NCBI GenBank assembly: GCA_007695115.1
Contig: REEK01000170.1
Location: 1-64,000, forward strand
DNA: 64,000 nucleotides
Source: Sphaerobacteraceae bacterium
GTDB lineage: Bacteria; Chloroflexota; Chloroflexia; Thermomicrobiales; Thermomicrobiaceae
Direction: 5' to 3'
Shown here: one piece after another, positions 32,454 through 37,308 of the stretch
Numbering within the stretch: position 1 is the first letter of the stretch
How the letters are laid out: each line of letters starts with the position of its first letter
Notes under the pieces: generated by a model
Database searches by the model: none
Told to the model about the DNA's origin: nothing
Seen by the model: only the letters and a program-made list of their open reading frames with translations
Made by a program: the position numbers and the translations under genes

Positions 32454-33644
32454 ATGGAAGCCAGCCTGATCGAAATGGGCAAGGACCGTGGATATCTGTT
32501 GTCGGATGAAGTCATTGCGGCGTTCCCTCACCCCGAGGACGACGTCGAACTCCTTGACGATTTGTACCATAGCCTGCTCGAGAATGGCATAGAAGTCCTC
32601 GACGATGATCCCAATAAGCGAAAGATGGATCTTCGCTCACGGCTTTCACTCAACGGTGGCCATCATCCAGTCCCCGATCCGGCAGAATCGTCTATTCCCG
32701 ACAGCAAACAGATCGCCGAAGAAGCACTTGCTGCCGGTGTCAGCGACTCGGTTCGTCTCTATCTTCAGGAAATTGGGGTCACCGATCTTCTGAAAATGGA
32801 AGAGGAAGTCTGGCTGGCCAAGCGCATGGAGCGCGGCCTTATCGCAGAAGAGCGCATCAAGAACGGTGATTACCTCACTGACTCCGAACGGTTCGAACTC
32901 AATGCCGACAAGGAAGACGGAGATCAGGCCCGCTCTCATCTGATTCAGGCGAACCTTCGCCTGGTCGTCAGCGTGGCCAAGAAGTACGTTGGCCGCGGTC
33001 TCTCGTTCCTCGACCTGATTCAGGAAGGCAACATTGGCCTGATGAAGGCGACGGACAAGTTCGACTACCGACGTGGCTTCAAGTTCTCCACCTATGCCAC
33101 CTGGTGGATCCGACAGGCCATCACCAGGGCTATTTCCGATCAGAGCCGCACCATCCGTCTCCCAGTTCATGTGGGCGAGACGATTAACCGGGTCAAGAAG
33201 ACCGGTCATCGCCTGCAGCAGATCTTCGAGCGGGAACCGACCTCGGAAGAGGTTGCCCGGGCAATGGACGTCCCCGAAGAGAAGGTACGCCAGGTACTGG
33301 ACGCTTCACGCCTTCCGGTGTCACTCGAGGCGCCCGTTGGCCAGGAAGGCGATGCTTTCCTGGGCGACTTCATCGAAGACGAGACCATGCCCCCACCACT
33401 GGAGCTCGCTTCACAGCAACTGCTGAAGACCCAGATCACTGACGCACTTTGCCGCCTGACTGAGCGAGAACGCCGCATTGTGATTCTCCGCTTCGGGCTG
33501 GACGACGGTCAGTTCCGGACGCTGGAAGAAGTCGGCCGTGAGTTCGGGATCACGCGAGAGCGAATTCGTCAGATCGAGGCGAAGGCGCTCCGCAAGCTGC
33601 GTAACCCGCAGCACTCCGAGACGCTCAGGGGCTATCTCGACTAG
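32454..33644 (+). CDS. Primary-type sigma factor (RpoD/SigA family)
   Basis: 396 residues from ATG 32454, preceded by GGGTGGGGG. Region 1.1-like sequence is at about 10-55, region 1.2 around [15 protein letters not shown] near 102, region 2 from [20 protein letters not shown] through [18 protein letters not shown] to [12 protein letters not shown], region 3 to about 320, and region 4 ends with the HTH in [20 protein letters not shown]. It directs core RNA polymerase to the TTGACA/TATAAT promoters seen throughout the window. Chloroflexi often carry several RpoD-like sigmas, so sigA versus a group 2 paralogue is open. It has its own promoter and a structured leader. Confidence 0.88.
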
Positions 33645-33716: not shown

Positions 33717-34967
33717 TTATGTTGACAAGCGGGAGATCGTCAGTGCAACGTTGTGCCCGCCGAAGCCTAGCGAATTGCTCAACGTGTGGTTCAACTGAGC
33801 TTTGCGAGGCCCCTCCGTTACATAGTCGAGTGTGCAGTCAGGGTCCGGGTTCTCGTAATGCCATGTCGGTGGAATAACACCACTGAGTATCGACTGGATC
33901 GTAAAGACGGCTTCGACTGCAGCGCCAGCGCCGAGCAGATGGCCGGTGAGAGCCTTTGTAGAACTGATCGGTGGTGCCGTCTCTTCACCGAAGACCGACG
34001 ACGTCGACAGCGACTCAAGTCGATCGTTCAAAGGTGTCGACGTCCCATGCGCATTGATGTAGTCGATGTCACCGGGTTCCAATCCAGCCTGCTGGATGGC
34101 GATGCGCATCGCTCTGGCTGCTCCACTACCGTCCATGGCCGGTTGAACGATATGCGATGCATCTCCGGTGGCGCCGTAGCCAGTGATCTCCGCGAGAATC
34201 GTCGCACCACGAGACTGTGCATGCTCCAGTGATTCGAGAATCAGAACTGCTGACCCCTCTGCGATGACGAACCCGTCCCGCGTCAAGTCAAATGGTCTGC
34301 TCGCGGTCGTTCCTTCGGAGTTGCGCGTCGAAAGCGCCTGGAGCGCCGCAAATCCAGCAACTGATCCACGCGTCACCGCTGCCTCAGAACCTCCCACGAT
34401 CATCACATCGGCGTCATTACGCCGAATCGTGTTGGCCCCCTCACCTATCGCGTGTGCGGCGCTGGCACAGGCAGAGAGCGTGGCGAGGTTCGGGCCTTTG
34501 GCACCCAGCGTGATCGAAACGTAGCCGCTGGCCATATCAGCGAGATACATTGGAACGAAGAATGGACTAACCCGACTCGGCCCACGCTCGTTCAGTGTCG
34601 CGATCTCTCGCTCGATCGTCTCCATACCGCCCATCGCGGTACCGATCAACACGCCGATCCGGTCTGCGTTAGATCGATCGATGCTCAACCCTGCGTGCTC
34701 GGTAGCATCGAGGCTGGAGGCCACTGCCAGTTGAACGAATCGATCAGACCGGCGAGCCTCTTTCGCCCCCAGATACGCTTTCGGGTCGAAGTCGAGCACT
34801 TCGCCAGCAATCTGCGAACTGAGATCGCTGGCATCGAACCGCTGAATCGGGCCGGTTCCAGACCGGCCCTCCATTAGCGATTTCCAGACGGCGTCCAGCG
34901 TTGACCCGATCGGGCTATGGATTCCCATGCCGGTCACGACAACGCGGTTCGTCTTCTGGTCAGTCAC
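33717..34967 (-). CDS. fabF: 3-oxoacyl-[acyl-carrier-protein] synthase II
   Basis: 416 residues. It condenses malonyl-ACP with acyl-ACP in fatty-acid elongation. The catalytic triad is visible: Cys in [15 protein letters not shown] near 167, His in [15 protein letters not shown] near 307 and His in [19 protein letters not shown] near 343; the N-terminus [11 protein letters not shown] and C-terminal SLGFGGHNV are standard. No other fab gene is nearby. Its start overlaps the 2-hydroxyacid dehydrogenase stop by eight bases. Confidence 0.94.
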
Positions 34968-35937
34968 GCGTGAGCACCTCCGGGTTCAGACAGCGAGGTG
35001 GCGTTGTGCCATTGAGCACCGCCAGGACATTGTCGGCAGCGAGTTTGGCCATTCGTGATCGTGTCACTTCACTGGCGCTCGCAATATGCGGACAGACTAC
35101 CGCACGATCGATGCTAAGCAATGGATGATCTGCCGGAATCGGCTCCGGATCGGTGACATCGAGTCCTGCGCCCCAGATCTCACCCGATTTCAACGCTTCA
35201 ACGAGCGCATCGGTATCCACAACCGGTCCCCGTGCTGTGTTGATGAGAATCGAGCTCGACTTCATCTTCTTGAACTGTTCAGTGCTGAACAGGCCACGAG
35301 TCTCCGGTGTAAGCGGGGTGTGAACTGAGACGAAGTCGCTGCGGGAGAGGAGATCATCGAATTCAACATGTTCGACGCCAAGCTCGGACTCGGCCGCCTC
35401 GTTGCGGTACATGTCCGAATAGACGATCGTCATGTTGAATCCGGCGGCACGTTTAGCCATCGCCACGCCAATTCGGCCCATTCCGACGATACCGAGCGTT
35501 GCGCCATAGACATCCTGACCGAGGTATCCGAGTGGCTCCCAGGTCTTCCATTCGCCTCGAGCAATGGACTGATGTGATTCCGAAACGCGTCGTGCGGCCG
35601 ACATTAGCAGTGCGAAAGCGAAGTCGGCCGTGGTATCCGTCAGCACATCTGGCGTAATACAAACGGCGATTCCGCGCTGTGTGCAGGCATCCACATCGAT
35701 GTTGTCGTAGCCTACCGCGAAATTACTCACGACTTTCACTGCCGGAAGTTTGTCGAGCACGCTTCCGTCGATTTTGTCGTTCAGTGTCGAGAGAATGCCT
35801 GCGGCCCCCTCGACGTGCTCCAGCAGCTGCTCTGGTGACGGCGGCAATTGCTCCGGCCAGACGACGACGTCGGCTCCTGAGCTTTCCAGTGTTTCCAGCG
35901 CCACTGCTGGAATTTTTCGGGTCATTGCAATACGCAT
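34960..35937 (-). CDS. D-2-hydroxyacid dehydrogenase (glyoxylate/hydroxypyruvate reductase type)
   Basis: 325 residues from ATG 35937. The NAD site is [16 protein letters not shown] near 148-163, and the catalytic residues are Arg in [13 protein letters not shown] near 236, Glu in [11 protein letters not shown] near 265 and His in [12 protein letters not shown] near 284. It reduces glyoxylate or hydroxypyruvate with NAD(P)H. The frame is open up to 36177, but that region is antisense to the 6S RNA gene and has no protein homology; AGGAGGGAG before ATG 35937 decides the start. Confidence 0.9.
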
Positions 35938-36037: not shown

Positions 36038-36067
36038 TTGAAGCCGACCGGAAACGGGTGATATGAT
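36038..36067 (+). promoter_or_regulatory. Extended -10 promoter of the 6S RNA gene
   Basis: TTGAAG (36038-36043), an 18-base spacer and TATGAT (36062-36067), with TG at 36059-36060 giving an extended -10. The predicted start is near 36074-36075, just at the 5' arm of the 6S closing stem. Confidence 0.75.
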
Positions 36068-36074
36068 GTGGTCG

Positions 36075-36237
36075 GTTGAGTCCTGAGTTCGATGCGCTGC
36101 AAATAGTGTGTTGAGCCAACGTAAGATAACAAAAGGGAGCTGCTAAGCGGGTCTCGTGGGATCCGGGGTTGCGGCACCCACCTGCTTTTGCAGGTTCAAG
36201 ACCTTATCAGTGGTCGAGCTACAGGACTCTCCTTTTT
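36075..36237 (+). ncRNA. ssrS: 6S RNA (ssrS), global RNA-polymerase regulator
   Basis: A transcript of about 160 bases. The 5' AGTCCTG (36079-36085) pairs perfectly with CAGGACT (36222-36228), and with one bulge the closing stem continues (AGTTCGA with TCGAGCT, one G-U). The 3' half has the family-typical GGCACCCACCT-loop-AGGTTCAAG segment (36174-36200), whose ACCTGC/GCAGGT hairpin has a TTTT loop, and GGTCT (36150-36154) pairs with AGACC. The middle (about 36095-36148) is poorly paired, as expected for the open-promoter-mimic bubble. TTTTT follows at 36233-36237. 6S RNA binds the sigma70 holoenzyme and releases by pRNA synthesis. Family assignment is by remembered consensus, not by a covariance search. 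Confidence 0.82.
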
Positions 36238-36270
36238 CTTCATCTGCACCCCACTAAACCGGAGCAAGCC

Positions 36271-37308
36271 GTGTCGACAGGCGGACTCAAAGCCCCGATT
36301 ACGATCCTGCACGGTGATAACAGACTCGAGATACGCGACCGCCTCTCAGCGGCCCGTGAGTCGATCGATCCGACCGGGCTGAGCACGTCGGTGTTCGAGG
36401 ACGCCAGCCGGGTAACGGACGACGTCGCTCTGGCCACCGGATCTCCGGGATTTTTCGGTGCGGATCGACTGGTCATCTGTCACGATCTGATTACTCCATC
36501 GACAGGCGGACGCCGCCGATCTTCACCAAAAAAACAGCCAGAAGCCGATCCGCTCAAGTTTCTTGGTTCAACCGCACCTGGTGTGTGGGTCATTATTGTG
36601 GAATCGAGCCTGAAGCGACCAGACGAGAAGCGTGTCAGATCGATCACCGACGCGCTCGATGTGCAGCAGGTCAATGTCCCGCGTGGGCGCGGATTGATCG
36701 ACTGGGCATGTGAACGGGCGAGACGCCACGAGGCAATGCTGGACGGAGCTACCGCGACGCGCCTCGTCGAGGCATTGTTCCCGGGAACATGGCGCGAAGT
36801 CGCTCGTCAGAACGACGTTCCGCCTGACCTGTATCGACTTGATGCCGAGATCGCCAAGCTGTCTGTGTCTGTCGGCCCAGGCGGAGAGATCTCGTCTGCT
36901 GCAGTTGCCGAGCTGGTTCCGAACGCCGACGCCCTCGACATATGGGGATTGAGCAATGCGATCGCGGATCGTGATCAGGCCCGGGCGATCAAGCAGCTCG
37001 AGCTGGCGCTCGATACCGGGCAGGCACCAGAGGCGATTCTTGGCCAGTTGGCCGCACAATTCGAATCGTTCGCGGTGGTCCTGTCCGCCCGGGGACGGCC
37101 AGATCAGGCGGTTGCCCAGATGACCGGGTTGACCGAAGGCCGGTTGCGACAGGCTTCTCGTGCCGCTCGCAACTATTCGCGGGAAGATCTGCGACGAGCG
37201 ATGGTGGGCATTCGCGACGTGGATTTCGGAATCAAACAGGGACTGCACGAACCTTCGGACGCCCTGAGCGGGCTGGTCGCGGAACTTTCACGTCGACGGA
37301 GTCGGTAA
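36271..37308 (+). CDS. holA: DNA polymerase III subunit delta
   Basis: A 345-residue clamp-loader delta subunit. Seen: ITILHGDNRLEIRDRL at the N-terminus, a lid-like domain with VARQNDVPPDLYRLDAEIAK near 185, DIWGLSNAIADRDQARAIKQ near 224-243, and a C-terminal helical collar ending in GLVAELSRRRSR. The frame is open from 36169, but that would start inside the 6S RNA. GTG 36271, six bases after CCGGAG, is the natural start. It is downstream of 6S on the same strand; read-through past the U-tract could co-express them. Confidence 0.85.
   Translation: MSTGGLKAPITILHGDNRLEIRDRLSAARESIDPTGLSTSVFEDASRVTDDVALATGSPGFFGADRLVICHDLITPSTGGRRRSSPKKQPEADPLKFLGSTAPGVWVIIVESSLKRPDEKRVRSITDALDVQQVNVPRGRGLIDWACERARRHEAMLDGATATRLVEALFPGTWREVARQNDVPPDLYRLDAEIAKLSVSVGPGGEISSAAVAELVPNADALDIWGLSNAIADRDQARAIKQLELALDTGQAPEAILGQLAAQFESFAVVLSARGRPDQAVAQMTGLTEGRLRQASRAARNYSREDLRRAMVGIRDVDFGIKQGLHEPSDALSGLVAELSRRRSR

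Follow-up and report, generated by a model that had tools for sequence, protein, structure and literature searches.

The sequence analysed here, referred to as the window, is a 64,000-nucleotide stretch from a Sphaerobacteraceae bacterium. It contains a gene for a D-2-hydroxyacid dehydrogenase and, in divergent orientation, holA, which encodes the delta subunit of DNA polymerase III. Between the two lies a match to 6S RNA (ssrS), with promoter elements ahead of it and a T-rich stretch at its end; a gene for a sigma70-type factor is located further upstream (Table 1). 6S RNA is a small bacterial RNA that parks the transcription enzyme as growth slows.

Table 1. Genes and RNA features at the 6S locus of the window
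Feature	Position	Strand	Basis or remark
Sigma70-type factor (regions 1.1, 1.2, 2, 3, 4)	32457..33641	+	about 2.4 kb upstream of 6S
D-2-hydroxyacid dehydrogenase, divergent neighbour	34960..35937	-	Pfam PF02826 and PF00389
-35 element TTGAAG	36038..36043	+	most relatives have a TTG-type hexamer, spacing 16-19
Extended -10 element TGATATGAT	36059..36067	+	TGNTANNNT conserved in relatives
6S RNA (ssrS)	36077..36231	+	full-length RF00013 match, homologues, covariation
Closing stem, 5' strand GAGTCCTG	36078..36085	+	pairs with 36222-36229; covarying helix 1
Helix adjoining the central bubble, 5' strand, and predicted pRNA template starting at C36120	36111..36120	+	third base after GAGCC
Central bubble, remainder of 5' side	36121..36134	+	unpaired in alignment consensus
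Conserved GGGAGC, start of upper arm	36135..36140	+	GGG invariant in 33 sequences
3'-side bubble hairpin ACCTGC-TTTT-GCAGGT	36180..36195	+	3 consensus pairs; 6 predicted once pRNA forms
Closing stem, 3' strand CAGGACTC	36222..36229	+	fold
T-rich stretch CCTTTTTCTTC, presumed RNA 3' end	36231..36241	+	sequence
holA (DNA polymerase III delta), conserved downstream neighbour	36271..37308	+	Pfam PF21694

Family match, fold and promoter

The whole window was compared with Rfam at the curated cut-offs. Only a tRNA was reported, and 6S RNA was not among the hits. With relaxed thresholds, the 6S / SsrS model RF00013 matched the 6S segment over its full length (model positions 1-187 of 187) with 40.9 bits. 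The E value was 4.2e-07 in the local scan and 1.0e-6 in a search of the whole genome, in which this was the sole match. The curated cut-off (gathering score) of RF00013 is 46.4 bits. The window's 6S RNA falls 5.5 bits short of it, and default annotation thus omits the gene. Other Rfam matches in the segment (bxd_5, isrK and sR43) reached 12-13.5 bits against cut-offs of 45-50 and were set aside as chance hits. A first-pass annotation, made from the sequence alone, had proposed a 6S RNA gene at 36075-36237 and named RF00013 as the model to check it with. That segment does match 6S RNA, although the Rfam match is slightly narrower than the proposed limits.

The 163-base segment folds as a rod with -71.5 kcal/mol (z -5.0), and none of 200 shuffled sequences (0/200) gave a structure as strong. 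The structure of the minus strand was weaker (z -3.0) and was discarded. The closing stem described in the first-pass annotation is present, and its pairing continues inwards beyond the two strands listed in Table 1; the segment that it had called typical of 6S RNA was found as GCACCCACCTGC at 36174-36185 and GCAGGTTCAAGAC at 36190-36202. In an alignment of 33 sequences, compensatory changes occur at 29 of the 48 predicted pairs. The proportion of paired cells is 92.7%; shuffling lowers it to 81.1%, and sliding the partners against each other to about 40%. The covariation score is 0.374 (0.173 in shuffles, at most 0.088 with slid partners). The rod of closing stem, central bubble and upper arm is thus conserved by compensatory change. 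In the free minimum-energy fold of the window's own sequence some bubble bases are paired; the evidence for an open bubble comes from the family and the alignment consensus. The motifs that flank the bubble (TGAGCC, GGGAGC and CCCACC...GGTTCAAG) are present. Across the 33 sequences the blocks TGAGCC, GGGAGC and CCCACCTGC..GCAGGTTCA are invariant or near-invariant, as in the 6S family, and the blocks GAGCC, GGG and CCCAC.TGC...GC.GGTTCA are nearly or fully invariant.

Ahead of the RNA, the promoter with an extended -10 that had been proposed was recovered: TTGAAG is followed after 18 bases by TATGAT (36062-36067), which has TG ahead of it. The site agrees with the consensus at 9 of 12 positions, and 0.2 such sites would be expected from shuffles of the region. 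An extended -10 (TGnTAnnnT; TGNTANNNT) is found 15-20 bases ahead of the first base of the model in 30 of 34 loci, with about 0.007 expected per locus. Judged from sequence, the 6S RNA has a housekeeping-type promoter of its own. Of the terminal U-run suggested earlier, the T-rich stretch stands, but a canonical intrinsic terminator hairpin was looked for after the window's 6S RNA and not found, so the 3' end is a presumed one. At three of three loci of genus g2 (L030, L035 and L038) the 3' strand of the closing stem reads GGTGGGG and is followed, within about 20 bases after the 6S match, by CCCCACC and a T run; this GGTGGGG could belong to the closing stem or, alternatively, to a separate terminator-like hairpin.

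At the sequence level, these data establish membership of the 6S family, a conserved rod-shaped fold that contains a central bubble, and a conserved promoter. We conclude that 36077-36231 is almost certainly the genome's single 6S RNA gene, with a predicted RNA of about 155-160 bases made from its own sigma70-type promoter.

Overlapping frames and linkage to holA

Open frames cross the 6S RNA gene on both strands, as the first-pass annotation had pointed out. The dehydrogenase frame is open to 36177 on the minus strand, and the holA frame runs on the plus strand from a TTG at 36169. The accompanying warning, that an automatic gene caller could misplace the starts of both neighbours, is a fair one. 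Based on where homology begins, the true starts are likely GTG 36271 for holA and ATG 35937 for the dehydrogenase, whose homology in relatives starts at the methionine at 35937. As parts of the 6S RNA in the window are spanned by open frames on both sides, the segment could be taken for coding sequence, that is, for an N-terminal extension of HolA or of the dehydrogenase. However, among eight genomes the phase of the 6S RNA with respect to holA is 0, 1 or 2 and the extensions, once translated, differ and are unrelated, the dehydrogenase frame closes ahead of the RNA in four genomes (G002, G003, G010 and G013), and sequence changes follow the base pairing. The occurrence of all three phases in close relatives indicates that the protein frames are due to chance; they are not conserved as coding, and the probability of a coding segment is in our view vanishingly small. 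A full-length RF00013 match, strong covariation and flanking frames without conserved coding thus support the original reading as a 6S RNA. One of the four genomes, G002, shares 221 identical bases with the window around the 6S RNA (36040-36260), yet of these two sequences only G002 has a stop in the dehydrogenase frame ahead of the RNA.

Of the 34 loci, 33 have holA directly downstream of the 6S RNA and in the same orientation; the exception, L027, lies on a contig that runs out 165 bases further downstream. Family f2 is more distant and gives weaker 6S matches, and there too holA comes directly after them. Outside the order, the three Chloroflexota loci examined have LysM/glycosyl hydrolase 25 (GH25), methyltransferase and amine oxidase genes as 6S neighbours in place of holA, and the 6S-holA linkage thus seems to be particular to this order. 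We did not find this linkage in the open-licence literature, where papers containing both words concern other subjects, going by title and abstract.

Such a close association raises the question of whether the RNA might be a structured holA leader with a purely cis-acting role, such as an attenuator or RNA thermometer, that resembles 6S RNA. The RNA ends 40 bases ahead of holA on the same strand with holA next in 33 of 34 loci, and a terminator hairpin was not found between the two, which makes some read-through plausible. Co-transcription would still allow 6S function, though, and a leader has to be weighed against the full-length 6S covariance match, the canonical invariant blocks of 6S RNA and the presence of 6S RNA with other neighbours in other classes of the phylum, so that holA is not an obligatory partner of the RNA. 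We consider the leader very improbable. A 6S RNA proper could also be kept ahead of holA through functional coupling, in which read-through from the 6S promoter would set the supply of the clamp-loader subunit with growth phase, and those genera of the window's family f1 with a relocated holA would have lost 6S RNA altogether. This idea seems unlikely to us, if less so than the leader.

Occurrence in related genomes

RF00013 matches were obtained in 41 of the 61 genomes of the window's order, 28 of them above the cut-off, with a best score of 77.8 bits. All 5 genomes of the window's genus have a 6S RNA, and each scores under the RF00013 cut-off (36.6-44.1 bits). An order-specific model, R1, comprises 33 aligned homologues including the window and finds 6S RNA in 44 of the 61 genomes. 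It gives the window's 6S RNA 112.1 bits, a score that is high partly by construction because the window belongs to the model. In a sample of the phylum Chloroflexota, 54 of 301 genomes were above the RF00013 cut-off.

Within family f1, genera g1 and g2 carry 6S RNA, as does most of the order. No credible 6S RNA was found in g3, g4 and g6 of the same family even at E values up to 10, and several of these genomes are 99% complete. The best R1 score in G006, G007, G009, G011, G012, G014, G015, G017 and G018, which belong to these three genera, was 19.9 bits (E 0.8), and 6S motifs were not found upstream of holA in their loci L055-L061 and L064-L065. The RNA has apparently been lost or has diverged extremely in the three genera, and it is thus not universal in the family.

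With related genera that have no 6S RNA or an unmatchable one, and with a score of 40.9 against 46.4 bits, the window's gene might itself be a decayed or non-functional copy. Its promoter and invariant blocks are intact, however, R1 (window included) scores it as high as it does, and the gene is retained in 5 of 5 genomes of the genus. We regard decay as less probable again than the leader, and keep to the reading of an intact 6S RNA gene.

The presence of 6S RNA in Chloroflexi was known before (Wehner et al. 2014, as cited in PMC7726162). The newer points are modest: the order-wide 6S-holA linkage and the apparent absence of 6S RNA from three f1 genera. RNAs of this kind are ordinary, and the window's gene leaves the understanding of 6S RNA itself unchanged. 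It does fill an annotation gap, as the whole genus is under the Rfam cut-off and default annotation would label its genomes 6S-free. The R1 alignment, together with the linkage to holA, provides an easy route to the gene in related genomes, and, through the apparent absence of the RNA, the three genera offer a natural comparison for asking which functions require 6S RNA.

Predicted pRNA and comparison with known 6S RNAs

In E. coli, the pRNA starts at U44 (PMC8876501), a position three bases past GAGCC. C36120 occupies the equivalent position in the window, and a pyrimidine (C or U) is found there in 33 of 34 loci. From this correspondence the template start was predicted at C36120, with a pRNA 5'-GUUGGCUCAACACA read towards lower coordinates. 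The predicted pRNA starts are GUUGGCUCA in the window's genus and AUCGG or AUUGG in other genera. The pRNA was mimicked in silico by blocking 14 template bases in the 34 sequences and refolding them. With the template blocked, a 6-bp ACCUGC/GCAGGU hairpin is predicted in the 3' bubble of all 34 sequences, compared with a median of 3 pairs before. A switch from helix to hairpin is thereby predicted in 28 of the 34; the other 6 form all 6 pairs of the hairpin even without the block. The predicted hairpin resembles the 3'-bubble hairpin described for 6S release in E. coli (PMC8876501).

As judged from its family, the window's 6S RNA would imitate an open promoter, bind the holoenzyme of RNA polymerase with the housekeeping sigma factor and retain it as growth slows. 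When nutrients return, the polymerase would copy the RNA from C36120, and pRNA synthesis would open the adjoining helix. The freed 3' strand could then form the ACCUGC/GCAGGU hairpin, upon which the polymerase would be released. The sigma factor encoded at 32457-33641 would be the expected partner; region 1.1 also occurs in a second protein, encoded in the genome at G000:C157:11380-11529.

The RNA shares with E. coli ssrS the rod of closing stem, central bubble and upper arm, a sigma70-type promoter of its own, and the TGAGCC block, with the pRNA start (predicted in the window) three bases past GAGCC. Both also carry, in the 3' bubble, a CACC...GGUUCAAG block that can fold into an extended hairpin once the pRNA has been made (again a prediction for the window). 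It differs in size (about 155 bases versus 183), in the first base of the pRNA (G predicted versus A in E. coli) and in the downstream gene (holA versus fau/ygfA). The pRNA of B. subtilis 6S-1 is 5'-GUUCGGUCAAAACUA (PMC12005410); the predicted pRNA of the window likewise starts with G and has a similar pattern. Both RNAs have a small 3'-bubble hairpin in the free form, whereas the extended 3' hairpin predicted for the window is nearer to the E. coli type. Compared with 6S-1, a bubble-collapse helix is suggested weakly here, and for the window's genus only. The candidate, GUAAG/CUUAU in the pRNA-blocked fold of the window, was by eye not retained even in all congeners and was dropped.

A 6S-like rod is also formed by Ms1 RNA of Actinobacteria, which binds core RNA polymerase and has a HAD hydrolase gene alongside (PMC9130861). 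The window's neighbours, holA and the dehydrogenase gene, and the match to RF00013 argue against its RNA being an Ms1. Among other Chloroflexota 6S RNAs (L046-L053), most of the eight loci share the CCACCTGCGAAAGCAGGTTCAA core with the window, and their upper arm is longer than the window's. Most of these eight loci also have a near-identical upper-arm block (AACGCGATAGGC.TGAGCCAAGGCGGCGTTTC), which includes a second TGAGCC.
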